From positions 620,001-684,000 of the forward strand of contig MCGO01000002.1 in NCBI GenBank assembly GCA_002104985.1: DNA of 64,000 nucleotides. Direction: 5' to 3'. This stretch comes from Rhizoclosmatium globosum (taxonomy: Eukaryota; Chytridiomycota; Chytridiomycetes; Chytridiales; Chytriomycetaceae). The translations under genes were made by a program, and so were the position numbers. The notes beneath the pieces were generated by a model that saw only the letters and a program-made list of their open reading frames with translations, ran no database searches and was not told where the DNA came from. Shown here piece after piece: positions 1 through 41,889 of this stretch (positions are counted from its first letter, which is position 1; every line of letters starts with the position of its first letter).

Positions 1-1249
1 CCTGTCAAGAAGTTGCATGTGAAGGATCAGAAGCGTGTGCTTGTGACTGGAGGTGCTGGTTTTGTGGGATCCCACTTGGTCGACAGACTCATGATCATGG
101 GTCACTTTGTTATTGTCGCAGATAACTTCTTTACTGGCTTCAAGCGCAATGTGCAGCACTGGATTGGTCACCCCAACTTTGAGTTGATCCGTCACGATGT
201 TGTTGGTGAGGTTTTGTCGATTTGTACAAGTCCCTGAGACAACATAACCACTCAAACCTATTCTCTCACTATTGCTAGACCCTCTTATGGTCGAAGTGGA
301 TCAGATCTACCACTTGGCGTGCCCAGCCTCCCCTCCACACTACCAACACAACCCTGTCAAGACCATTAAGACTTCCATGATGGGAACCATCAACATGTTG
401 GGATTGGCAAAGAGAACTAAGGCTAGAATTCTTCTCGCGTCTACCTCTGGTATGTTTGGTCTTTTTTCGTACTTCCGATTATACGATGAGAACCTTTTGA
501 CAATCGAGACCAAGTTCACTAAAAACGCGAAACTATTCACCAGAAATCTACGGAGACCCAGAGGAGCACCCACAGAAGGAGACTTACTGGGGTCATGTCA
601 ACCCAGTTGAGTTTTTTTTGGGATTTTTTAGTTTTATTTACTTAGGTCTAATATTAATTTTAGATCGGTATCCGTGCCTGTTACGATGAAGGAAAGCGTA
701 TTGCTGAAACTTTGGCGTACGAGTACCAAAGAAAGGACAAGGTTGAAGTTCGTGTTGTGAGAATTTTCAACAGTTGAGTGCATTATTTTTATTTTCCTAT
801 CTTTCTATTATCTTAATTCCCAATATTCTTTAGCCTTTGGTCCACGTATGAACCCAGAAGACGGACGTGTCGTTTCCAACTTCATCGTCCAGGCTCTCAA
901 GGGTGAACAGTTGACTGTGTACGGAGGAGGAAAGCAGACTCGTTCGTTCCAATACGTGCACGACTTGATTGACGGAATGATCAAGCTCATGAACTCTGAG
1001 TACAGCCAGCCAGTAAACGTTGGAAACCCTGAGGAGTACACTATTGGTCAATTTGCTGAGGCGATTCGTGACTTGGTGAACCCCAAGGCGACTATTGCAG
1101 ACTTGCCAATGCCAAAGGATGACCCACAGAGACGTAAGCCAGACATTACTCGAGCCAAGACCGAGATTGGATGGGAGCCTAGGTTCTCTGTGATGCAGGG
1201 AGTTGAGGAGACTGTTGAGTACTTCAAGAGCATTGTTGACATTCTTTAA
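1..1249 (+). CDS. UXS1: UDP-glucuronic acid decarboxylase (UDP-xylose synthase), 5' partial
   Basis: Converts UDP-glucuronate to UDP-xylose with a bound NAD+. The upstream coding part lies outside the window; about 320 residues are visible. I place exons at 1-205, 279-449, 544-605, 664-772 and 834-1249; joined in frame they give an uninterrupted short-chain dehydrogenase (extended SDR) fold. The NAD-binding glycine motif TGGAGFVG is near the start. The UXS-typical HLACPASP, the catalytic YDEGK (YxxxK) and the substrate-site stretch [15 protein letters not shown] follow in order. Introns 3 and 4 use an unusual GTTGAG donor. The stop is 78 bases before the ubiquilin start, so both genes share a very short gap. 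Any N-terminal membrane anchor would be upstream of the window. Family assignment is very secure. Confidence 0.95.
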
Positions 1250-1327
1250 TTTGTGATTGGGTGTGAAGGGTGGTTGTGGTATTTGAATTCATTCGTGGGA
1301 AAAGAAATCAAGGGGGCAATAGAAACC

Positions 1328-2838
1328 ATGTCCCAAACACTTACCTTCAAAGTCCGAGCACCATCGGGCGAAACCCACACGGTCCAAGTTGATTCCGAGT
1401 CGACATTCGGCGGGCTCAAAGCAGCGCTGTCGCCGGTTGTGTCGATCGCTGCAACGGAGATGCGGGTTGTTTGCGGCGGGCGAATCCTGCGCGACGACGA
1501 TGCGGCAATTCAAAGCCTGGGCTTGGCTGACGGGGCGACGCTTCACGTTGTGCGACAGGTGCGTTGGTGGTCGTTGGTCGTGTTCACCACTAACTAAAGT
1601 ACCACAACTGTCTAGGCTCAGAACTCGCAACAAACTGTTTCCTCTCCAGCTGCAGCTGCGAGCCAGGCGCGGTCGCCGGCTGCTGCGAATCCCCTCTTTG
1701 GCGGTATGGGCGGCGCGGGGGGTATGCCCGACAGAGACCAAATGCAGGCGATGATGCGCAATCCAATGATGCAGGCTCTTCTCAACAACCCTGACTTGAT
1801 GGCTTCAATCATGGAGGCTGATCCTCGTATGCAAGCCATGGCGGAACAAAATCCTGAAATTAGACGCATGCTTCGCGACCCCGCCTTCCTCAGACAAATG
1901 ACCCAGGCGATGCAGAACCCTGCGTTAATGGATGAAATGCAGAGAAACCAAGACCGTGCGTTGTCGAATATTGAGTCCATGCCTGGTGGAATGACCGCTC
2001 TCAGTGGATTGTACAGCTCAATGGAACGAACTCAAAGAGCTCTGGAGCCAACGGGACCTACTGTGACTGATGAATCGAATCGTCTTTTTGCGGAACGGAT
2101 TGGCGCTGACTTGAGCGATCAAAGTGCATTACCTAATCCTTGGGCTCCTGCTGCTACAACTTCTTCAACCGCGAGACCTGCTGCAGCTGGTGCGGCAACT
2201 GGCACCGTACCAAATCCATTCGCTGCATTGAGCGGTGCGGGTGCTGGCGCGGGTGCCAATCCCTTCGCGTTCCCTCAATTCCCTACTCCTGCAGCTCAAG
2301 CAGGGGTTCCACAACCAGGAGCACCTGCCAACAATATGCAAAGTGAGTGAATTATGAAACTTTCACTTTGAATCAAACTAATACAAATCAAGGTGATCCA
2401 TTCTTGAGCGCGCTTCTTGGAATGAACCTCGCGAACCAAACTGCCAGTCAAGGACATGGACAAACTCCATCAAATCAGCAACCAAACCCCGTAGAAGTTC
2501 AAGCTCAACGTCTTCAAATGTTAACACAGCTCATTCAACTTCAACAGGCGATGCAAGGTGCTCAAGCTGGTGTCGCACCAGGAGTAGCTTCTCAACAACC
2601 CCAACTACCATTTTTCAATCCCTATGCAAACCCGTACGCCTTCACTGCACCACCAGCAGCTACAACGCCAGTTTCCCCGACTCCTGCTGCACCAGCCATA
2701 CCACCTGAGGAGCGTTTCAAGGACCAACTGGAACAAATGAATGCGATGGGTTTTGACGACAATCAGAAGAATATCAAAGCTTTGTTGGCTGCTGGAGGGA
2801 ACTTGGAAAGTGCAATCAATTATTTGCTGTCTATGTGA
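1328..2838 (+). CDS. DSK2: Ubiquilin / Dsk2 ubiquitin shuttle protein
   Basis: Shuttles ubiquitylated clients to the proteasome and helps clear misfolded proteins. Exons 1328-1558, 1616-2342 and 2393-2838 join in frame to about 467 residues, normal for the family. The N-terminal ~75 residues are a ubiquitin-like domain (FKVRAPSGETHTVQVD). The middle is rich in Met/Asn/Gln/Pro with STI1-type repeats (MMQALLNNPDLM, then MLRDPAFLRQM). The last ~45 residues are a UBA domain with the MGF motif (LEQMNAMGFDD) and LESAINYLL. The start is the first ATG that yields the complete ubiquitin fold. Introns use standard GTGCGT and GTGAGT donors. No frame problem is visible. Confidence 0.95.
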
Positions 2839-2944
2839 GAAAGAATCAGAAGAAAAATGTATTCCATATAGGAACTGAAAGAGTAATTCGATTGTTTGTT
2901 TCTGTTTCCCATTGTTTCTTGCAACCCAACAACTCCTTCTAAAA

Positions 2945-5764
2945 ATGGCCGCGAACCTGGATCAAGGAGTTGCAGCAATCAAAATCGAGACTTCCGAAAC
3001 TGCCGAGAATGTAACTGGAGCGGTTCCTTCAACCGGAGGTTTGAGACGAATGTCAAGTGGGGTGGCCACACACCGCTATTCAATCTCAGCGGCGGAAGTA
3101 AAAGCAAAGACAAAGATTATCTTGCATGGTAAGAACATGATCAAATACTAGTTTATGGAAAGAGTTGAAAGTTAACGTGTCCCTTATGCTAGTGTTATGT
3201 GTAACTTTCCATCATCGGTATGCCTCTCCTATCTTTCTCTCGCTTCTGCTGCAAGCTAAACATACTCTTCAACTCAATTTGATATCTTCAGTAACGGTCC
3301 ACAGGTTTGGCTTCCTCAGTCTTTCTCTTGGATCTCTGACAACCTTCTCAATTAGGTGGAGTATGTGACTCCTCCGTTTCCCGGACACGAACCGTTGGGA
3401 GACTCGTTTCAACCTGACGGAAGTCGTACAGCGATAGGATTGCCTGATGAATGGTCGTTCTTTGTGAGTGCAATGAACATGTCACCCAAAGGAGATACTG
3501 ACTCGTGCATCCACCAATAAGCCCTTTCTATGCTTACCAGATGGAGCACATGGTAAACTCAATTATTCTTGATTATTGAGTCATGTTAATGTGATTTTGC
3601 ATATGCAGCAAGCGAAGAAGAGTTTATTTGTGAGTCGGATTGGGAACATATGAAGGAGAACTGACTTAAAACAACCTTGGAAACCCCTGTAGATTTCCAC
3701 CTTCCCCCAGTGGCTGGATGGGAAGGGTATAACACGACGTTGTTCGGACTGGCGTGTTTCCGACAGATACCCGTCGCTGTAAGTGGTTCGATATCGTTTC
3801 GACACATCTGAAAAATCTTGAATCAGGACCTTTTGGTGAAAACACCCGATTTGACGCGAAGCACTGTTCAAAAGGCGTTGGTAGTTTTGGCGACTGAGGT
3901 AAACACTGTATTGGGAATGATGTTTCCTGAAATCGCCCTTCAAGCCGATTCTCGGTTCAGTTCGAACGAAACTGAGTCTCGTAAATCAAGCATTTTTTGG
4001 ACAGCGTGATTTCTCGAAGATGGATATTGTTGAGGTATGTCGGAAATGTTTTTGAATGCTAGGTTTTTAAACTGGAATCTTAGACATTATACACAAGTTT
4101 AACTATGTCAATTCACGGCCCGATTTCAGACTCTACCCTTTATTCTGGAATCTCACTCCGCGAACTAGTCAACAAATTCAAGCAAAAGACTCTTCAACTC
4201 TTCAAACTCCTCTTTCTCGAGAAACGCGTTTTATTCTATGGACCGAAAGTCGAAGCTCTTTCATCTTACCAGTACAGTTTGATTTCCTTGATGCCAGACC
4301 TGTTGCGACATTTGCACGACGTTGGAGCACCGAATCTGTGTTATGCAGAGACAGGATGTTTACAGCCAGATGCGGAAGCCGGTGATGCGTTTCGACAAAA
4401 GTTGAGGAGTTTAGGGCTTCCGTTACGGATCTTTGGCGAGGTTTGGATTGTACGAAACTTGAAGTCGATGACTGAATTGTTATGTTCAAGGGTGCATTCT
4501 TTCAGCCTTATATTCCATTACAACAGATTGATGTGATTATGGCGCCAGAGACAAAGTCGTTCTTGGTGGGTACGAGCAATTCAATTTTCTTACATAATAA
4601 GACGGCACGGATTGATGCGATTGTCAATGTAAGACACGCTTTCATTAATCAAAGTATTTAACATAACTTCGTGTAGTGCGAGAAAGGAACGATTGAAGTG
4701 ATTGATCCAGTTTTGATGCAAGCAATGTCTCTGACGTCTGCTGATAAACGGTTTATCGATGGTAAGCTAGTCTCATCAAAACTGTATCGCGACTTAGAAT
4801 TATAAATTAGAAATTACCAAGACAGTTACAAGTACTTGGTTGCAAGAGGGTTTGTTGAGTCCTTTTTTTCCATTTGGGAACTAAAGCCCTTAATTAGATG
4901 ACCCTAGTCTCAACCAGCAAATCGAGTTTGAAGGAAGTGACGATGACATTCGAGCTCGTTTTGAATCATATCTGTTTTCGTTCCTTGTTTCGGCAAAATT
5001 GACATTAGATCCTCCTGAGGTTGTCGCAACGAGTCCAGATGCACCAACTCCAAAACGTGAGAAATATATTGAAACTTTGTTTCGGTTAATCGTTATGTTT
5101 AGCCAAGGATTACACGAGTGACTTCAACAGTTCATGGGTTAAATTGTGGCAAAAGACCAACAACTTCAAGATATGGAACGAACATACAAGTGGACCACAC
5201 ATTTCTTCAACTGGAATGTATGTTATTTGCTCATGTTCATTTGTGTTGGGAATAGCTGACAGTAAAGCACTTCAAAAGCAGAAGCCCAGGTCACGTCAAA
5301 GAAGTCCCTTCAACACTTTCCTACATGTCTGCGCAATTATCTCAATTCAGCTGGAACGTTATGCCTGCTCCTCAGACCGTAGAAAAGGCTCTGGCCACGG
5401 CAGAATCAACTGTAAAATCTGCCGTGAGTACTGTCGCTGAATCGCAACAGGCAAAGACGATTCAAAGTACGTTTCTAATTTTTTTCTTGTTCGTTTACTG
5501 AATTTGTGGTTAGCGGGTGCAACTCAAATGTTCGCGAGTGTGTCAGGCTGGATGTCAACCAAGAAACAAACCTGGACTTCGGCGAGCCCTAAACCAGGAG
5601 ATTCCGCAACTAACGCTAACACATCGTCTGGAGACACTAGAGTGCAGACCGATGGGAAAGTGGAGGCTGGGGCAGAAGGACCTAAATCTGCTGGATCGGA
5701 GGAGCCGTTTGTGGAAATCAAGGCGACAGATGCGGTAGAGACGTTCGAAGAAATCAAAATGTGA
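2945..5764 (+). CDS. AVL9: AVL9 family late-secretory pathway protein
   Basis: AVL9 proteins belong to the DENN-related superfamily and act in Golgi-to-surface vesicle traffic. The gene has about a dozen short introns; after splicing the first half follows the family closely: VTFHHRNGPQVEYVTPPFP, then PFLCLPDGAH, FHLPP, the block TRSTVQKALVVL, LVNQAFFGQRDFS and FKQKTLQLFKLLFLEKRVLF. A tiny 13-base exon (about 3292-3304) encodes part of the conserved N-terminus. The exon at about 3959 is entered through the acceptor just before CCGATTCTCGG, which gives the expected PILGSVRTKLS. The C-terminal ~150 residues are low-complexity Ser/Thr/Lys and end in an acidic tail. The start ATG is in a good context 106 bases after ubiquilin. 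Confidence 0.88.
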
Positions 5765-31510: not shown

Positions 31511-32432
31511 TCATACCCATCGGAACCCTTCACTCTCAAAGTTTGTATAACACCCAAACTCATTCGACAATCCGCCCTTATGTTTGGGCTCAAACGCACA
31601 CAACTTGCAACCCAACTCCCTTGCAATCTTTTCACGCATCACGAGTCCCGTGCACACTATAATCTTGCATCCTTCCTTTGCGAGCCATCTGACAGTCTCA
31701 CTCGTTTTTGTCCAGCACTCGTCGCTGAGGAACGGGGGGTCAACGACAAGAGTGTCAAAGTTACGGTGTAGGGATGTGTCGAGGTCTGTGGGTTGGTTGT
31801 AGTCGTAAAAGACAAAGGATGAGCCGAATACTGCAAAGCGTTTGTCGAATTCAAAGACGAATGGGTTGAGCGTTTTTGGAAGTGAGTCGGATTTCTGGGC
31901 GATGAAAGTGTCAGTTGATTGCTGCAGAAGAGGGAATACGAATCTTCGTATTGATTATGCAGGGGACATACGATCGATTGTACGTATGCAATAAACGTAC
32001 CATCATTTCGACAAAGACTGTTGGTGAGGAGACGCAACCCAAGGCTCCTCCCTCTGGAGTGACAGCGATAGAATAGTTGGCCAAGTGCTGAGCTGTTTCG
32101 TCAGAATACCAGAATTGAGACAACTGCCAGTCTTCCTTGAAGTCTTCCATGGTAACTTCGATTTTCGTCGCTCGGCAGCGGCATCGGCAGCCCTAATGAT
32201 CGGTGGCAGAGAGTCAGATGATCAGCTGATAAGCTTATTGGACAATGCATACTGGTGGGCAGTCTCTTTCAGGGCCTCGAATCGCTTCTCAGCTTCAGCC
32301 TTTTCGTTCAGGAAGCCTTGCAGCTAGCAGAAGTCAGCCAAGATCTGATATGACTGAATGCAAATGCCTTACCAGAGCCAGAGTGTCAGCAGGCAGAGCA
32401 ATAACGTCGTCGTCCGAGTCAATGTCCGACAT
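31511..32432 (-). CDS. EFM5: eEF1A lysine methyltransferase (EFM5 / EEF1AKMT1 type)
   Basis: SAM-dependent protein lysine N-methyltransferase acting on translation factor eEF1A. The start (32432) gives [10 protein letters not shown]. After two introns the signature [19 protein letters not shown] appears at about 32150-32095, then [17 protein letters not shown]. After a third intron (donor GTACGT) come [20 protein letters not shown], the catalytic [11 protein letters not shown] (NPPF/DPPF motif) with [25 protein letters not shown] and [13 protein letters not shown] to the stop. Total length fits the family (~220 residues). The gene diverges from SWI3 with 91 bases between starts. N-terminal exon limits are tentative. 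Confidence 0.88.
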
Positions 32433-32523
32433 TGTCGCTTGGGAGAGTTGAGTTGGTTGGAAGCGAAGAAAAAAGCAGTCGTTCACCAACAACAACAACA
32501 CACCACCACGACCATCACGACCA
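32433..32523. promoter_or_regulatory. 91-base divergent promoter, EFM5 / SWI3
   Basis: Two oppositely oriented start codons (32432 and 32524) are 91 bases apart. The spacer carries an ACAACAACAACAACACACC stretch before the SWI3 ATG. No TATA element is seen. Confidence 0.5.
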
Positions 32524-34528
32524 ATGGCCACGTTTGAAACACTTGGCGACCTTGAAATGGGCGAGACAGCCAAGGGCGTTCCCAGCGCAGCCAAGGCAGA
32601 GACACGTAATGCCCTCCTGTCTGTCTGTTCCGCTCTCTCTCTTTCTAACCAAACAAACAAAAGATGTCCCCGGCCTCAGCGACGCGCGCGAACTCGAACG
32701 AACACCCACCGGCGCCGCGGTTCGAGTCGTCGATGCCGCTGTCGACTACACAACTCCCTCGGCCGCAAAGTTCCTCGCTGCTCAGACAAAAGATGTCTTT
32801 GTCCCCGCCTACGCAACCTGGTTCAGACTCGACTCAATCGACCCCCGCGAACGCGTTGCTCTGCCGGAATTCTTTAACAACAAAAACAAGTCGAAAACAC
32901 CGGCGGTCTACAAGGACTACAGGGACTTCATGGTCCACACCTACCGTCTTAATCCCATCGAGTACCTGACTGTGACTGCGTGTCGCCGCAACTTGGCCGG
33001 TGATGTGTGCTCAATCATGCGCGTACACTCTTTCTTGGAACAGTGGGGTCTCATCAACTTTCAGGTACGAAACACTGCTGCCTCTCCTACGTTCTAACGT
33101 GTTTAAAAAACCAAGGTGGATGCTGACTCGCGTCCAAGTTTGATGGGTCCTTCATTTACCGGACACTTTGCTGTCACGGCTGACACTCCTCGTGGTCTCA
33201 TTCCATTTGGCCCTGCTGTTCCTGTGAACAAGGACACATCTCGCCATCCAAAGACAGAGCCATTTGGCTCATCTGCTCCCGTAACAGCTACAAACCTCCC
33301 CCTTCCTTCCATCTACGACAAAAAGCGCCCTGTAGCAGCAGCTTCATCAGACTCGTCTCCCACAAAGAAAATCAAATACGCATGTAGAACTTGTGGAGTT
33401 GACTGCTCTACACTCAGATACCATATTCCATTTGAAAAGCCCATCGTTCCAGGTTCCACTCCTTCCACTGGCGCTCCATTTATATCTGCATCAGGACTCG
33501 TCGAACCACAAGACATTGGATTCAACCTCTGTAAAGAATGTTATATGGAAGGGCGATTCCCATCCAACTTGTACAGCGGAGACTTTCAGCGCATCTCTTC
33601 CACACCAGCTACCACTGCCAAAGATGCACATGCTCCATGGACACCACAAGAGACTCTCTTGCTTTTGGAAGGAATCGAATTATTTGACCAGGACTGGACG
33701 AAAATTGCAGCGCATGTAGGAACTCGGAGTAAAGAAGCATGTGTCCTTCAGTTTCTCGAAATTCCTATTAGTGACGAAGATCAACTGTATGGACGGCCTG
33801 TGGAAGAACTTGGACCTCTTGCATTTGCTGGTGGAAAGGGTGGTGAACTTCTTCCCTTCACGGGAGGTGATAACCCGGTCTTGAGTGTGGTTGGTCTTCT
33901 GGTGGGCCTTGTGAAGCCAAGCGTTGCTAAAGCCTCTGCGAAAGCCGCTGTCGTTGCCATGAAAGAATTTGAAGCCGTTAAAAAGGAAGCAGGAGGTGAC
34001 GATATGGTTGTCGACCCACCCATCAAAACTGAGCATGGAAAGAAGGCACAAGACGCCATTTCAGCAACCTTGATGGAATCAAAAACAGAACCAAACACCA
34101 TCGAACACGCAGCTGCAACCGCGTTGGGAGCCGCCGCCGTCAAAGCAACCCAAATCGCAGCATCAGAAGCCGCCGAAGCCCGGCGCCTCACCCTCAAAAT
34201 CATCAGCCTCCACATCAAAAAAATGAACATCAAGCTCAAGCACTTTGAAGACGTGGAAGCGATTGTCGAAGCCGAGTTGAAGGAAGTTGAGCGGGAAAAG
34301 AAGATTGTGTTTGGAGAGAAGGAGCAGATTAAGAAGGAGAAGGCTGAGTTGCAGGCTTTGAAGGATCGACTTATGATGGAGGAGGCTGGGGTTGGGATGG
34401 ATGAAGGCGGTGCGGGGTCAGCGGAATTTAATATGGAAATTGGGGGAAGTAATGGAACTCCTGTTGTGAGGCAAGTTCAAGCACCGGCGCCGTCAACGGA
34501 TGGGATTGTCATGGCTTCCTTGAGTTAA
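32524..34528 (+). CDS. SWI3/RSC8-type chromatin remodelling subunit
   Basis: Core subunit of SWI/SNF-RSC remodellers. Exon 1 starts at 32524; an intron (GTAATG donor, acceptor before ATGTCCCC) enters [11 protein letters not shown]. Domains follow in order. SWIRM runs from [19 protein letters not shown] through [18 protein letters not shown] to [15 protein letters not shown] (an intron lies at the Q/V junction, near 33064-33115). The small Cys zinc finger of RSC8/SWI3 comes next ([16 protein letters not shown], then [14 protein letters not shown]). SANT follows ([40 protein letters not shown]). A Leu/Lys/Glu coiled coil ([20 protein letters not shown]) near the end is typical for dimerisation. 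Frame is intact over the second exon. Confidence 0.93.
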
Positions 34529-34793: not shown

Positions 34794-36658
34794 ATGGAAA
34801 ATACGAACAGACCCTTGGATGAAGACGATAGTCGCCTTAATTCCGTTGGTGATTCCAGCGATAGTTTTACTGAGAGTTTTGCGTCCACTCCCAAAGCTTC
34901 ACTTCCTGGCCTTACATCAAGAAGTCGATCTGCGTCAACTACCCGTAGCAGCTTCAATAAACTGCCTCCGATTCCAAAGGTACCGGCAGTTAGGGTCAAA
35001 CTTGATTTGGCTGCAGTTAGCGCCAAGCTAGATCACTCAGTGTTTATGAGTTATTGTTGGCGAAATTCGAGGTTGGCCGTTGAGGCCGGACAAGTTAGCG
35101 AGGCTGACGCGAATATCGGTGTAAGTAAATACGAATTGTGGTTGTAAGTGTTGGGGCTAACAGCAAAATTACAACAGGGCTGTGATCCTCGTGACTTGGC
35201 GCGAAGGCTCACGGAAGATAAAATAATAACGTTTTTGGATGTGAATCGGTTCAAAGAGGGTGATGATTTAGACGCAGCCATGAAGCAGAATATTACAGCT
35301 GGTACGTCAAGTTACTAAACACTAATTTTCTCGTCACTCATTCAGTTCCAGCAAAATTCGCGATTATTTATATATCACCAGAATATATGAAATCTAGGAA
35401 CTGTTGGCTGGAGTTTGAAATGATAACGTGGACAATGCCAGAAAACTATTTGTGTATTGTAGTTGGGGCACAAGAAGGAATTCAACCGGATGAAAAGCAT
35501 TCTGCTCTTATCGGAAATCACTATGTAAGCTTCTTTGTGTGATAATTTTCCCTAATTTCTGCCTATAGCGTATTGACACCACAAAGGACAAGAAAGGGTT
35601 CTACTCTGGAACATATATCCGAATACGCGATAATATTCGCACAAAGCTTCACGAAGTATCAAGTACACCAGCAGGAACCCCTGCCGTTGCCAAACCATTT
35701 GACCAGGCAAAAACGATTCAAGAGCAGCTGCCGATGGGAATCGAGATGCCCTTTTTACTTATGGGCGCCATCTTCTCGATAATGGAGAACCTGAAAATGG
35801 AGTTAAGATGATTGAAATGGCCGCAGAACAAGGCAACATTGAAGCAAAATTCGGACTTGCGACACTTTACCAGGAAGGAGCAAAAAAGATTGGCATTTCC
35901 AAGAATGCAAACAAGGCCATGAGATGGTTTGAAGAGTTGGCAGAAAGTGGGAATTTCCGCGGCCAGCTTGGGCTAGCTGAACTATATCATGATGGAGAAG
36001 GGATTAATGTTGACTTCAACAAGGCTTTATATTACGCAAATTTAGCTGCAAGTCAAAATTGCGCAGATGCACACCAACTTCTTGGGGATATGTACTTGAA
36101 TGGTCGTGGCATCACCAAAAGTGCTGATCAGGCATTTTCACATTACTTCAAATCAGCCAAACTCAATAACACAGATGCTGGATGTGTCAACAAGGAATCG
36201 GAACAAATCAAGACTCACTACTTGCAAGTCACCATTACCTTTTAGCTGCAAAGGCTGGATGCCAAACTTCGCAGTGGCAACTAGGAATGATGTTCTATAC
36301 TGGAGAAGGAATTAAGCAAGAAATAGAAAAGGGAATTCGTCACATTACAATGGCTGCAGAAGGCAGTGACGGAAGCCCAGAAGCACAATTTACGCTTGGA
36401 GTAATTTACAAAAATGGATACGGTGTCACTCAGAACACAAAATTAGCATTTGATTGGTTTCTCAAGGCCGCCAACCAAGGATTTGAATCAGCGCAACACA
36501 CTGTTTCTCTTATGTACCAGTGGGGAGACGGTGTCGAAAAGAATGTTGAAAAAGCCAAGCACTGGCAGCACAAAATGTTGGAGCACCAAATTCTTGATGA
36601 CCAAGAACTTCCACCTCCAATCTCCGACAGTCTTGCAGATTTATTCAGTATGAGATGA
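34794..36658 (+). CDS. TIR domain - Sel1 repeat protein, frame-broken
   Basis: The N-terminal ~70 residues are Ser/Thr-rich. A TIR-type domain follows: HSVFMSYCWRNS, LARRLTEDKIITFLDV, the BB-loop-like FKEGDD, and SRNCWLEFEMITW, in which the Glu after Trp-Leu aligns with the catalytic Glu of TIR NAD+ hydrolases. The rest is Sel1-like repeats (KFGLATLYQEG; GQLGLAELYHDGEGI; LLGDMYLNGRGI; WQLGMMFYTGEGI; FTLGVIYKNGYGV; MYQWGDGVEKNVEKAKHW), which usually form adaptor scaffolds. Introns lie near 35120-35177, 35302-35345 and 35525-35569. The frame breaks at an AAAAA run (35709-35713), where one added A restores continuity. It breaks again near 36175, where Sel1 residues also seem missing. It may be an assembly error or a damaged gene; function is inferred from domains only. 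Confidence 0.8.
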
Positions 36659-36767
36659 GTTTTTGGTTGTCATAGAAAAATCAAATTGATTTATTCAAAC
36701 TACTAAGTAAATGATAAGGATAATCTACATAAGGTTTTTGTATACAGAAAACGAACTAGGTCTCCAT

Positions 36768-38574
36768 CTAGTACTTGGCAGTACCGGTTTCACCGTCTCT
36801 CTTCTCCTCACCGAAAACCTCACCGATTTCCTCGAGGGAGAGTCCCTTGGTCTCCTTAATCATAGTCCAAGACCAGACAAACATGATGGCACAGAATGAG
36901 AAGAAAATCCAGTAGACACTTGGGCCCTTGTTCAAAGCACTGAACACTTGTGGGAAAGCGTAGGCAATGATGGTGTTCCAGATCCAGTTGGTCATGGTAC
37001 CAATACCAGTACCCTTGGAACGGACACGGAGAGGGAAGATTTCAGCCTGGTAAGACCAAACAACTGGACCCCAAGTAGTGGCGAAGGAGATCAAGAAAAT
37101 GTAGACAGAGATAATGGCACCCCAGGCAAGTGGCTGGTTAGACTTGGAAAGCTGGAAGAAAGTGAAGACTCCGGCGTGACCGATGGCCATTCCGAGGGCT
37201 CCCCAGAGCAACAAGGTCTTTCTACCGAAACGGTCGACAGCCCACATACCAGGGAAGGTGGCAATGAAGTTGATGAACGCGTTGGCGAGTGGGAAAGCAA
37301 TCTTGGTGTCAGCAGAGGCGAAACCCATGGCGTTGAAGATATCCTTTGAGTAGTACAAGATAACGTTGATACCAGTAAGCTGCTGGAGTGACTGGTTGAC
37401 AATGGCAATGATGGTACGCTTTCCAATTGATCCACGGAACATTTCACCCCAGGTAGAGTCGCCCAAGTTCTTGTCAAAGTCAACACCGTCCTGGATTTCC
37501 TTCATCTCGGCAACAACCTCGCGGTGGTTAACATCGAGACCACGGAGCTTGGAGATAACCTGGATAGCCTGCTCATGGAGACCTTTCTCAGCCAACCAAC
37601 GTGGAGACTCTGGAATGAAGGAGACGAGAACCACGAGGAGGATAGATGGAACAATTTGCATTCCGAGGGCAAGACGCCATTGAGTGAAAGACAATCATCG
37701 ACAGCCTTGATGATGATGGAGTTGATAGCGGTGGCAACGAAGATACCGAAAGTAATCATGAGTTGGTAAACGGTAGTCCTGATAATCATTTGTTAGGTTT
37801 GAACGCATTAATTCGATTTTTATACTCACAAAGCACCACGAGTAGCAGCTGGAGCAGTCTCAGCAATGTACATAGGGACGACCATAGAAGCAGTACCGAT
37901 GGCAAGACCAGAAACAACACGACCGATCAAAAGAGGTCCGAGAGTAGAAGAAATACATTGAACAAGACCACCGATGGCGAACAAGATACCAGAAATGATA
38001 ATGGACTTCTTGCGACCAAGTCTGTCACAAACAACGGAGAAGATGGCAGCACCAATGATACAACCGAACAAGAAGGTGGAGGTAATCCAGGACTCCAAGT
38101 CAGCCTGGTTGTCAGCATCGATGGTCTTTCCGTCAGAACCGTACAATGGGTTTCCAGTGGAGTCGAGCTTGATGAGGTTGAACTGGATCTGGAATGAGAT
38201 CATGGCAAGAACTTGTCTGTAAGCAATGTAATTTATTAGTTAAGGGATCATAGTCGAGATGAAGGACTGGAAGGATAAGTGTTAGGGTGAAGCCACGCGG
38301 AAGAAGCCACACCAGGACCCTTGAGTCACATTGATGGGGAGAGTCAACGATAATGCGGGACTACTGACTCACCCAATAACACCGATCTCATACTGTATAC
38401 GTGAAAATGAAAGTCAGAGTCATGTTGGTGATCTTAGTGTGGCCCACTTACACCAAAGAGCAAACCACCGAAACCGGCAGCGAATCCAACGATCCAGTTG
38501 TAAGTAGAAGAAGCCTCAGACTTTGTCATCTTGCGTTGTTTCAAAGAAGATTTTGTGATTGGACTCCTACTCAT
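36768..38574 (-). CDS. Sugar porter (MFS hexose transporter family)
   Basis: Twelve-helix monosaccharide importer at the plasma membrane. The start (38574) gives MSRSPITKSS. Short introns split GGLLFGYEIGVIGQVLAMI and the region after TRGAL. Sugar-porter signatures are present: DRLGRKKSI, GRVVSGLAIGTASMVVPMY, PESPRWLAEKG, QQLTGINVILYYS, GRKTLLLWGALGM, FATTWGPVVWSYQAEIFPLR and a KETKGLSLEEI end motif. Length is about 530 residues. The codons are strongly biased, so long antisense open frames appear over it. It converges on the TIR-Sel1 gene (gap 109 bases). Specificity (glucose, xylose or other) cannot be assigned from sequence alone. Confidence 0.95.
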
Positions 38575-39393
38575 GGCGTATGGCCTTATATATGTAATTT
38601 CGGTGTCTAATAGTTCATCAACATCGTCAAATTGGAAAATTTGAAACCTCCGACCCTCACAACTAACACGAACCCTGATTTACTGCAACGGTATTTGCGC
38701 GATATATCCTATATGAGCTGTGTATTTGTGGGTGGGCGTATTGATGTTGTATTCTTGTGAGTTCCGGCTTTGCGTGCGCCATGCTAAACCACGGAATCCC
38801 GTGTGGCACGCTCGGGACGGAACGGGTGACACTTAATCACTCTGCATACTGTGATAATCAACCCGTGTTTTCTTCCGTCCCTGCATTGTCTGTACTTTCT
38901 CTTAGTGACGTTCTTCATGCTGTGATATCCCACGCACTAGGCTTATGCAACCCCTAAATTTCTGTTAAATCACCCCTATCTGTATGTTATCTGTGATGTT
39001 ATTGATGGCGCGTTGCATCGCCGCCTTGTCATTGTGGAGAAAGGAAAAATTCAGAGTAAGATCTCAGCGATTTTCCAAATAGATAGGTCTGAGGCATTGT
39101 GTTTGAAAGAGTATGGTACGACATTTATTGCTGTCAATTGTTTATAAAAAGATGTCATGATCTCATACCAACAAACGGTTGAATATATTAAACTTCTACG
39201 TCGATTGGAGACCCTGCATAAAACGGTACGCTGGTCAGCGCTGTTCTGGCTGGTTGCGCAGCTTTTCAATTCCTTTTGGTGATCTAAATAAGATCAGCTT
39301 TAGACACCTCCACCCACCCTTGGCAAAAGCCGCCCACTCCACCGATTGCGCAGCACTTAATCGCAGCACATTCTCAACTGACTTCGTTGTTGA
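38575..39393. other. Intergenic region, 819 bases
   Basis: Between the sugar porter start (minus strand) and the stop of the TIR membrane gene. It would hold the sugar porter promoter. Open frames at 38757-38957 and 39179-39487 have no recognisable domain. No repeat or RNA gene is evident. Confidence 0.45.
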
Positions 39394-41889
39394 TCACCTT
39401 CTCATTGGTTTCTTTACTCTCTTTATTACCACAAAATCAAAAGTATTAAAAGAGTTCTGGCTTATTTTTTGTAACTTGTATCCATAAATCTTCAGTGCAT
39501 TCTTTACCCTTAAACCAATTTGCAATATTGTATCCTTCGCAAAGTTCTCATCTAGTTCCCATGCAAGAAGCAGGATGTACGATCCCATCAATACGCCCTT
39601 CTCAAGCTCCTGTCCGAAAATATCCACTTTCGTTGCATTGTCTTTTGGATGGCACACGACCAACACGCAGTCGCTTATACTCAAACTGTACTGAACCAGT
39701 TTTTTCTTGAATTCTTCCACTTGATTCGCGATTGAAGATGACGGCGAGTCAGTGTCCTTTGTCCTCCAAACACAAAGACGTGTACCATGACCAAATTGTC
39801 TTCATAGTCCCTTTCGTCTTTTGGAAAACGGATCCCAAGGTTGATAAGGAATTGACGAAGGTTCTGAGCGATTGGATGGTTTGTGTCAAAGTCATGAACG
39901 GCGACGGAGACTCTTCCAATTCCGTTTGCATTGTTATCAAAGCTGGTATTTGACGTTGGAACAACTTTGGCGCTGTTAAAGCGGGGTAGAATGTCAATGG
40001 TTGAGACTGCGCGAGAGGGCCGCTGAGAGTCTTCAATGGGGAGGTTTGTCGATTTGGCTGTCGTACTAAACTTTGGAATAACGTTGAAGACGTGGCTTGA
40101 TTCAGTCACTTTTGATACATGCCGTCTTGCTTTCCACCATTTTCGAAACGAACCAACATATCGAGTTGGTGGATTAATGGATTTGTCAAACCCGTTGGCA
40201 GCTAGCAAAGGTTTCAAACATTTTGACTGATTTTGTCGGCAGTCTACAAGGTATAAAAAGTCGACTTGACCAGTATACTAAATTCAGGAATTTAGTTCAC
40301 GAAGCAGCCATAGTGTGTTGAGGTACTCACCAGAAGCACTGCTGATGCAATGGGAAATGAAATCCAAGCTAACGAGGATGTATCGAAGAAAGCGTATCCA
40401 AATATAGTGAGAAAAATAGTCAAGATGTAGATTACGAAGAAAAATGGAACGCGTATCCTTTTTCGGTCGTTTTCCTCATGTCAGATGAAAGCCAGAGATT
40501 GGAAACTTTTATATCGTAAGCTAATGACGCCTAGAACCGATTCTTACTTGTCACTGCATTTTTGGGCGCAAACTTCCCAAACAGGTTGAATCTCTTGAGC
40601 TTAGAAACGGTCGGGAGAATGGCCTTGTCTGGAACACCAAATCCAGAACCAACATGTTTCAACCACCTGATCGAAAAATTAATCACTCCAACATCATTTA
40701 AACGTATATCACCATATATAATGCGATAAGTCCACTGAGTAGATTACTCTATGATTCAAGTAATCAATCAATCTGGAATATTCTCGAATAACAGTGATTC
40801 CTTTCTTTTCCAGTTGCCCAGCTAATGCAGTAACTCGCTTCATGTCTTCTTCTTTGTAAGATAATCCCATTTTCGCCTCATCAGGCCAAAACACAATCAC
40901 TCTATCCTTTGCGGATACTGGAGCATTCAACGCCTCGTACAGCTCAATAAAGCAAGCAGGACTATTGACATACGCTGCCGTCAGACACACTACAACAAAT
41001 CGCGCATGTGCCGCCACGGTTCTCGTGACACGAGACGCCTTATCCCCCGAAATCAATTTCAAGACATCAATCCACACCCCAATTTCGTTTTTAAGAATTC
41101 CACGCGCAAGACATCGAATGTCGTTTTGGATTCCGGGTTGCCATGAGTAAGAGAACATGACTTCTTCGACAAGTGGTTTTCCAATCTGACGGAGGTAGCG
41201 GAGGAGGCCACAGGGTGTGCGTTCATTACGAGTTAGGGCCCATGCGAGAACGATAATCTAGAATAAATTGTTTGGCACATGTTGGTTGTGTGATTTAATC
41301 GCTTACACTCATGATCAGGGTCCCAGGTCCAAGGAAAATTGATGTAGTGTGCCAATACCCATTTGTATCTTCGGCTTTTCCCAGATAAGCAGCCAAATAG
41401 ACATATCCTGTTGATGTCATGTAATTCTTGTACCAAGATATAAGGTTTGTCAATACAAATAACGATAAGACGACCGCTTCGACGGCATTGATGTAGTTTG
41501 ACAAAAGGTGGTACGTTCCGAGTTTATGTTTCCTTGATTGGGATTCAAAAATGAGGCAATTTCCAAGCTCATAATGTTGATGTGGTCTCCACAACAATTT
41601 CCAGTCGGCTTTTACAGTCCGACATAATCCCCAAATCTACAAAGTGTTAAAAAAAAAATATAGTACGTCAAGTTGAAAGATGGTTCACCTTTTCTGGTTG
41701 GTAATCAAAGAGGGGCAATTCTGAACACTCGAGTAGCTTTTCCTGTGTCTCTGGCGCGGCGTAAGGATCGAAAGCCGCTTTTGTATACGCTTTTATTCCG
41801 AAATATGGGTCTAAATCAGTCTGCTTTCCTCCGTGTTTGGGAGGCAGTAAATCCAGAAGAGTAAAGAAGTTCTCTTGCTCCGAAGGCAT
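39394..41889 (-). CDS. Multi-pass membrane protein with TIR-type domain
   Basis: Start at 41889 (MPSEQENFFTLLDLLPP). The first exons give two or more membrane segments (INAVEAVVLSLFVLTNLI; VYLAAYLGKAED; SIFLGPGTLIMS; IIVLAWALTRN). A TIR-like domain follows: VMFSYSWQPGIQND, GVWIDVLKLISGD, RFVVVCLTAAYVNSPACFIE with LYEALN, where the Glu in ACFIEL aligns with the catalytic Glu of TIR NADases. A second membrane pair follows (VPFFFVIYILTIFLTIFGYA; WISFPIASAVLLV), then a long tail of unknown type. The frame breaks at about 39756-39761 (AAA run on the coding strand). One added A continues into VEEFKKKLVQYSLSI and the final ~100 residues; an alternative splice could also bridge it. Several exon limits between 40250 and 40700 are tentative. 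Confidence 0.7.

Follow-up and report, generated by a model that had tools for sequence, protein, structure and literature searches.

Two TIR-domain genes of different architecture at one locus of Rhizoclosmatium globosum, probably separate members of a large TIR repertoire

The window, that is, the whole stretch of DNA analysed here, comprises 64,000 nucleotides of the chytrid Rhizoclosmatium globosum and corresponds to bases 620001–684000 of contig MCGO01000002.1 (954,752 bases) in an assembly of 56.9 Mb (GCA_002104985.1). It contains, within 7 kb, two genes for proteins with a TIR domain, which is familiar from the immunity of plants, animals and bacteria. One of the proteins has Sel1 repeats (TIR-Sel1) and the other predicted membrane helices (membrane TIR), and they probably belong independently to the extensive TIR set of this genome rather than forming a dedicated pair. 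The TIR-Sel1 gene is on the plus strand and is followed by a transporter gene and the membrane TIR gene, both on the minus strand, with a gap of 2.7 kb between the two TIR genes:

34794..36658, plus strand: TIR-Sel1 gene (exon reading; Pfam TIR_2, TIR and Sel1; homologues P0001–P0004)
36768..38574, minus strand: Sugar_tr transporter gene between the two TIR genes (Pfam; frames; start codon by reading)
39394..41889, minus strand: multi-pass membrane TIR gene (exon reading, Pfam, homologues, tblastn)

The TIR domain of the TIR-Sel1 protein is above the Pfam cut-offs for both TIR_2 (31.9 bits, cut-off 28) and TIR (PF01582; 21.7 bits, cut-off 21.3), scores that refer to an acceptor lying two residues further upstream than in the exon reading given below. 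It is followed by clear Sel1 repeats (PF08238) with 81.4 and 95.3 bits in two pieces, in agreement with the architecture given in the initial annotation, and the sugar porter of the major facilitator superfamily that it placed between the TIR genes is likewise recognized by Pfam (Sugar_tr, 265.8 and 100.2 bits in two pieces). The TIR-Sel1 gene has three introns of 57, 50 and 44 nt, all with GT/AG borders, and is read as follows:

34794..35120, plus strand: exon 1, N-terminus rich in Ser and first part of the TIR domain, HSVFMSYCW (GT/AG borders; tblastn with P0003)
35121-35177, plus strand: intron 1, 57 nt (GT/AG borders)
35178..35301, plus strand: exon 2, middle of the TIR domain, CDPRDLARRL...FLDVNRF (reading, Pfam)
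35352..35524, plus strand: exon 3, with the Glu codon 35411-35413 (match to Obelidium P0003)
35569..35739, plus strand: exon 4, end of the TIR domain and linker, as far as the first frame break (tblastn with P0001 and P0003)
35709..36224, plus strand: first block of Sel1 repeats, in a different frame (PF08238, 81.4 bits; tblastn)
36179..36658, plus strand: second block of Sel1 repeats, in a third frame (PF08238, 95.3 bits; tblastn, 99% identity to P0001)

Four homologues of TIR-Sel1 were found at E≤1e-3 among 1052 candidates, two in Rhizoclosmatium sp. JEL0117 (P0001 among them), one in Obelidium mucronatum (P0003, 596 residues and apparently full-length, TIR_2 44.9 bits) and the deposited R. 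globosum record itself (P0002), which is named 'HCP-like protein' and is identical to the window translation over residues 1–150. The model of the Obelidium homologue, built on an alignment of four sequences, has a predicted local distance difference test (pLDDT) score below 45 across the TIR part, and the TIR assignment of TIR-Sel1 is therefore made from sequence profiles; a single-sequence PDB search with this protein gave no match at E≤1.

The second protein shows a TIR_2 match of 46.7 bits, well over the same cut-off, and 15.7 bits to PF01582, under the cut-off of that family. Together with predicted membrane helices this bears out its initial description as a membrane TIR protein, and the deposited record (P0005, 422 aa) is a truncated form of it. 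Profile searches thus place both proteins in TIR_2 and only TIR-Sel1 in PF01582, and neither is listed for SEFIR at E≤1, a family that had also been suggested for comparison. In this protein the TIR domain is preceded by two helices and followed by another helix region and then the C-terminal domain, the parts being listed here as the gene is transcribed:

41234..41507, minus strand: two predicted helices preceding the TIR domain, P0005 residues 111-129 and 167-185, with an intron inside (Kyte-Doolittle scan; a relative's model, low confidence)
40748..41257, minus strand: exon with the TIR domain, Glu codon 40943-40945 (PF13676, 46.7 bits; P0007 fold; Glu in 11/11 homologues)
40331..40450, minus strand: helix region after the TIR domain, with one helix called in the exon and two in longer relatives (Kyte-Doolittle scan)
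39481..39915, minus strand: C-terminal alpha/beta domain, family unnamed (kept in relatives; P0007 model)

Nine homologues of the membrane TIR protein, its own record included, and two more by profile were found among the best ca. 8000 candidates by shared words that were scored in each search, and all of these homologues come from Rhizoclosmatium, Siphonaria, Obelidium, Chytriomyces and Physocladia; the Chytriomyces membrane TIR seems to be complete. By hydropathy, the TIR domain is both preceded and followed by two helix regions in all six longer relatives scanned (P0006, P0007, P0008, P0010, P0011 and P0012). In P0005, P0007 and P0008 weak extra segments are also called within the TIR domain or the C-terminal domain, and P0009 has a single region only. 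P0010 (Chytriomyces sp. MP71) and P0012 (Physocladia obscura) have an additional N-terminal Cys-rich stretch and helix resembling an ectodomain; in 290 residues there are 13 Cys and 5 NxS/T sites in P0010, and 15 Cys and 7 NxS/T sites in P0012. Another relative, P0014, also contains a septin domain, which is perhaps a gene-model join. A fold search with the model of the homologue P0007 found the TIR fold, in line with the structural check proposed in the initial annotation, and the RPS4/RRS1 heterodimer structure is among the matches; a single-sequence PDB search with the membrane TIR itself gave nothing significant, with PdTIR at E 0.65. The C-terminal domain is conserved among relatives and has pLDDT 58–91 at residues 611–760 of the P0007 model, with no Pfam family and no PDB sequence match at E≤5. 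The list of the P0007 fold search was filled by TIR matches and the C-terminal domain was thus hardly probed, and the first two rows of Foldseek are a flavodoxin-like domain, given without the part of the query aligned. No published description of this family was found in open-licence PMC, supplementary tables being outside the scope, and with its unclassified C-terminal domain it is the more novel element of the two.

The Glu residues pointed out in the initial annotation (SRNCWLEFE and SPACFIELYE) are present, encoded by codons 35411–35413 on the plus strand and 40943–40945 on the minus strand. Their proposed alignment with the catalytic Glu of TIR enzymes holds for the membrane TIR, where the residue aligns with the Glu of Roq1 'CLEE' (profile alignment, E 1.1e-4), and is weak for TIR-Sel1 (AT1G72930, E 0.047; Roq1, E 0.14). 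In plant TIRs the aligned Glu is catalytic. It is invariant in 11 of 11 aligned homologues of the membrane family and is found in both TIR-Sel1 sequences that have exon 3, and is absent from P0001, P0002 and P0004, which skip that exon part. In window positions 35300–35525, the P0001 and P0002 models skip the Glu-coding part using different acceptors. The reading frame of exon 3 is open and agrees with Obelidium, and the exon requires an intron of 50 nt, against the 161 nt implied by the P0002 model. We therefore consider the database models to be wrong here, with a splice variant as the alternative.

The TIRs of plant nucleotide-binding leucine-rich repeat receptors (NLRs) and TIR-only proteins (Roq1, AT1G72930, RPS4, RUN1 and L6) are the best PDB profile match for both window TIRs and share the S-x-x-C-x-x-E motif, but Pfam finds no NB-ARC or LRR domain in either window protein, which have Sel1 repeats or membrane helices in their place. 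The NAD+ hydrolases SARM1 and tir-1 differ in that neither window protein has a SAM domain and an Arm-type model reaches 13 bits only, far under the Pfam cut-off; Pfam lists only TIR for the membrane protein and, for TIR-Sel1, repeats of the Sel1 and TPR types next to TIR. The TIR domain of SARM1 is moreover C-terminal, whereas that of TIR-Sel1 is N-terminal to the repeats, and plant, SPARTA and MyD88 chains match the window TIRs equally well as SARM1 or better. With the Toll-like and IL-1 receptors the membrane protein has a membrane-anchored TIR domain in common, and P0010 and P0012 also a Cys-rich N-terminal segment with an extra helix, but it is multi-pass, with the TIR domain between helices and a C-terminal alpha/beta domain added, and no LRR or Ig domain was found in it by Pfam.

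As assembled, the reading frames of both TIR genes are interrupted. The TIR-Sel1 frame shifts twice, at 35.71–35.74 kb and 36.18–36.22 kb, and the membrane TIR gene has a frame break near 39762, within the C-terminal domain (tblastn), and probably a second one near 40.45 kb, as judged from the frames in comparison with relatives. The transporter gene is broken near 37694 (by reading of frames), so that four frame breaks and a probable fifth are spread over three adjoining genes between 35.7 and 40.5 kb. A search for a second allele of the window region as cause of the breaks gave the window itself and a 70% paralogue only.

Two other accounts of these genes, taken singly, have to be weighed here. 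Both TIR genes could be recent pseudogenes decaying in this strain, as would be expected from two breaks in TIR-Sel1 and one firm and one probable break in the membrane TIR gene, and the second TIR-Sel1 break lacks several residues of P0001 (GLRMVG) and is therefore no single-base slip. However, the intervening transporter gene is also disrupted, and another membrane-TIR locus is present in two almost identical copies, of which L044 has a break in the TIR domain (near 4325–4435) and L043 has none there. Breaks spread over three neighbouring genes, and seen in one copy only of a duplicated locus, point to indel errors of the assembly. The final block of Sel1 repeats retains 99% identity to JEL0117, and we regard decay of both genes as unlikely. 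The TIRs could also be non-enzymatic adaptors that assemble complexes in the manner of MyD88 and TRAM, the Glu being structural or fortuitous. Against this, the Glu of the S-x-x-C-x-x-E motif is aligned to plant TIRs and invariant throughout the aligned membrane homologues, and the exon coding for it in TIR-Sel1 is open and conserved in Obelidium, with a 50-nt intron that suits the five other measured introns of both TIR genes (44–57 nt) better than one of 161 nt would. Both TIRs are catalytic-looking by sequence, and an adaptor role seems rather doubtful.

That fungi seldom have TIR domains is a reasonable statement overall, yet it fails for R. globosum, where 92 TIR_2 matches were found, 86 of them over the cut-off, and about 85 TIR places are counted; the matches include allelic copies that were not rigorously collapsed, contigs C366 and C3 being a clear two-copy locus. 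PF01582 gives 5 matches only across the genome. Five of the six NB-ARC matches, those on C146, C92, C62, C31 and C59, are accompanied by TIR_2 and TPR_12 matches of the same strand. Some of these places may be alleles, and in each of the five the TIR match is interrupted by one or more stop codons, owing to an intron or a break. The one on C146 (L048, C146:581800-586200, 523–4399) has TIR_2 at 32.0, NB-ARC at 30.8 and TPR_12 at 391.6 bits in three successive open frames. Places on C46, C361 and C28 resemble the window TIR-Sel1 in having a TIR domain followed by Sel1 repeats but are distant only, with 41% identity between the C46 TIR and Obelidium P0003 across 91 aa. C46 scores 44.1 bits to TIR_2 and 28.4 to Sel1, just under the cut-off of 30.7, in one frame, and C28 has TIR_2 at 31.0 bits and Sel1 by reading. 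C361 (L045, 301200–304200, 1–2753) differs from the window gene in that the TIR domain is preceded, on the same strand, by a protein kinase domain (kinase 122, TIR_2 34.7 and Sel1 71.5 bits), and might encode a receptor-like kinase-TIR-Sel1 protein, as one gene or two. Arrays of four TIRs with near-equal spacing are located at C55:49939-55892 and C112:918849-924838, and are probably two haplotypes of one tandem array.

The initial annotation had proposed that the soluble TIR-Sel1 and the membrane TIR resemble a sensor/effector pair, which implies that their adjacency is kept by selection. The adjacency within 7 kb is real, and heterotypic TIR signalling is known elsewhere, as in RPS4/RRS1. A tandem duplication of one TIR gene is ruled out by 28% identity over 75 columns and the different architectures. 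The orientation is convergent with the transporter in between, giving neither an operon-like order nor a shared divergent promoter of both TIR genes, and no promoter is shared because TIR-Sel1 on the plus strand converges on the transporter on the minus strand. Conservation of the neighbourhood, proposed as a check, fails in the one other genus compared, Obelidium, where three different contigs are involved, one of 221,468 bases with the TIR-Sel1 gene and two others, of 559,873 and 195,288 bases, with the membrane homologues. In R. globosum itself the membrane-TIR family has four copies, those on C366 and C3 being one locus seen twice with the same neighbours, so that the three other copies represent two distinct loci. 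None of these three is accompanied by TIR-Sel1: no match to it or to the transporter was found in 7.5–9.5 kb around them (margins 2.4–3.8 kb). The genome-wide search with TIR-Sel1 (best 73 of 172 candidates scored) gave none on C366 and C3 and on C112 the window's gene alone, which is the only R. globosum place matching the query along its length. Membrane-TIR homologues are also present in Chytriomyces, Siphonaria and Physocladia, where word-based searches with the best candidates scored found no homologue of TIR-Sel1.

For the pair statistics, 94 entries, among them the window TIR-Sel1 and the C112 paralogue as manual additions, were joined into 85 clusters at 2 kb. Random scatter of 85 points on one line, repeated 2000 times, gave a mean of 0.80 pairs within 6 kb and at least one pair in 56% of the trials, and 60 distinct loci would give an expected 0.38 pairs. 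Five close TIR pairs were observed, namely the window pair, the four-copy arrays on C55 and C112, and those on C246 and C409. TIR genes thus cluster beyond random, which in itself speaks for the pair, but mainly through arrays, and one unrelated pair lies within chance. A linked sensor/effector system therefore finds no support, and we hold it to be very improbable. Directly upstream of TIR-Sel1, at 32432–34528 on the plus strand, there are SWIRM and Myb domains, presumably of a protein of the SWI3/SMARCC type.

Fungal TIRs are hardly recorded. Passages of a 2026 TIR atlas describe EukProt as nearly devoid of fungal TIRs, those present coming from R. globosum alone, and the InterPro STIR clan as having zero fungal TIRs on 2025-11-02, while mentioning that a very small number had been described before (PMC13142454). 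NLRs with TIR are reported from Chytridiomycota, and TIR-like effectors from Pezizomycotina, in part of another account (PMC9815663); a 2014 survey found chytrids to be without NLRs (PMC4986451), and TIR_2 appears in a domain table elsewhere (PMC4102429). A study that names strain JEL800 of R. globosum attributes to five fungi, this species among them, more than 80% of the horizontally acquired genes it detected, and lists TPR genes obtained from Saprolegniaceae; the word TIR is absent from its main text (PMC11291939). No papers linking the TIR domain with early-diverging fungi or Chytriomyces were found in open-licence PMC. The notable part is the repertoire, consisting of TIR-Sel1, TIR-NB-ARC-TPR, a possible kinase-TIR-Sel1 and the membrane TIRs of Chytridiales.

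The account that we consider fairly probable is that the two genes are separate members of this repertoire and neighbours by chance, with TIRs that are most likely enzymes. TIR-Sel1 would probably act as a soluble receptor or scaffold, in which the helical Sel1 repeats bind a partner or ligand and gather the TIR domains. The membrane protein, with a presumably cytosolic TIR domain between its first two helices and the further ones and with the conserved C-terminal alpha/beta domain, would probably report an envelope or membrane cue. Once clustered, both TIRs would most likely cleave NAD+ or make nucleotide signals, since each keeps the Glu. A wider suggestion, offered tentatively as a possibility, is that Chytridiales operate their own system of immunity or self/non-self recognition based on TIR proteins, comprising a soluble branch (TIR-Sel1, TIR-NB-ARC-TPR and kinase-TIR-Sel1) and a membrane branch. 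The membrane family would then be a fungal receptor-like TIR enzyme with the TIR domain between transmembrane helices, and its C-terminal domain would be new and serve in regulation or signal binding. Having about 85 TIR places of several architectures, a multi-pass membrane type included, R. globosum would be suited for asking if fungi, like plants, animals and bacteria, use TIR enzymes for immunity, and the two TIR genes of the window matter as members of that set, not as a special pair.

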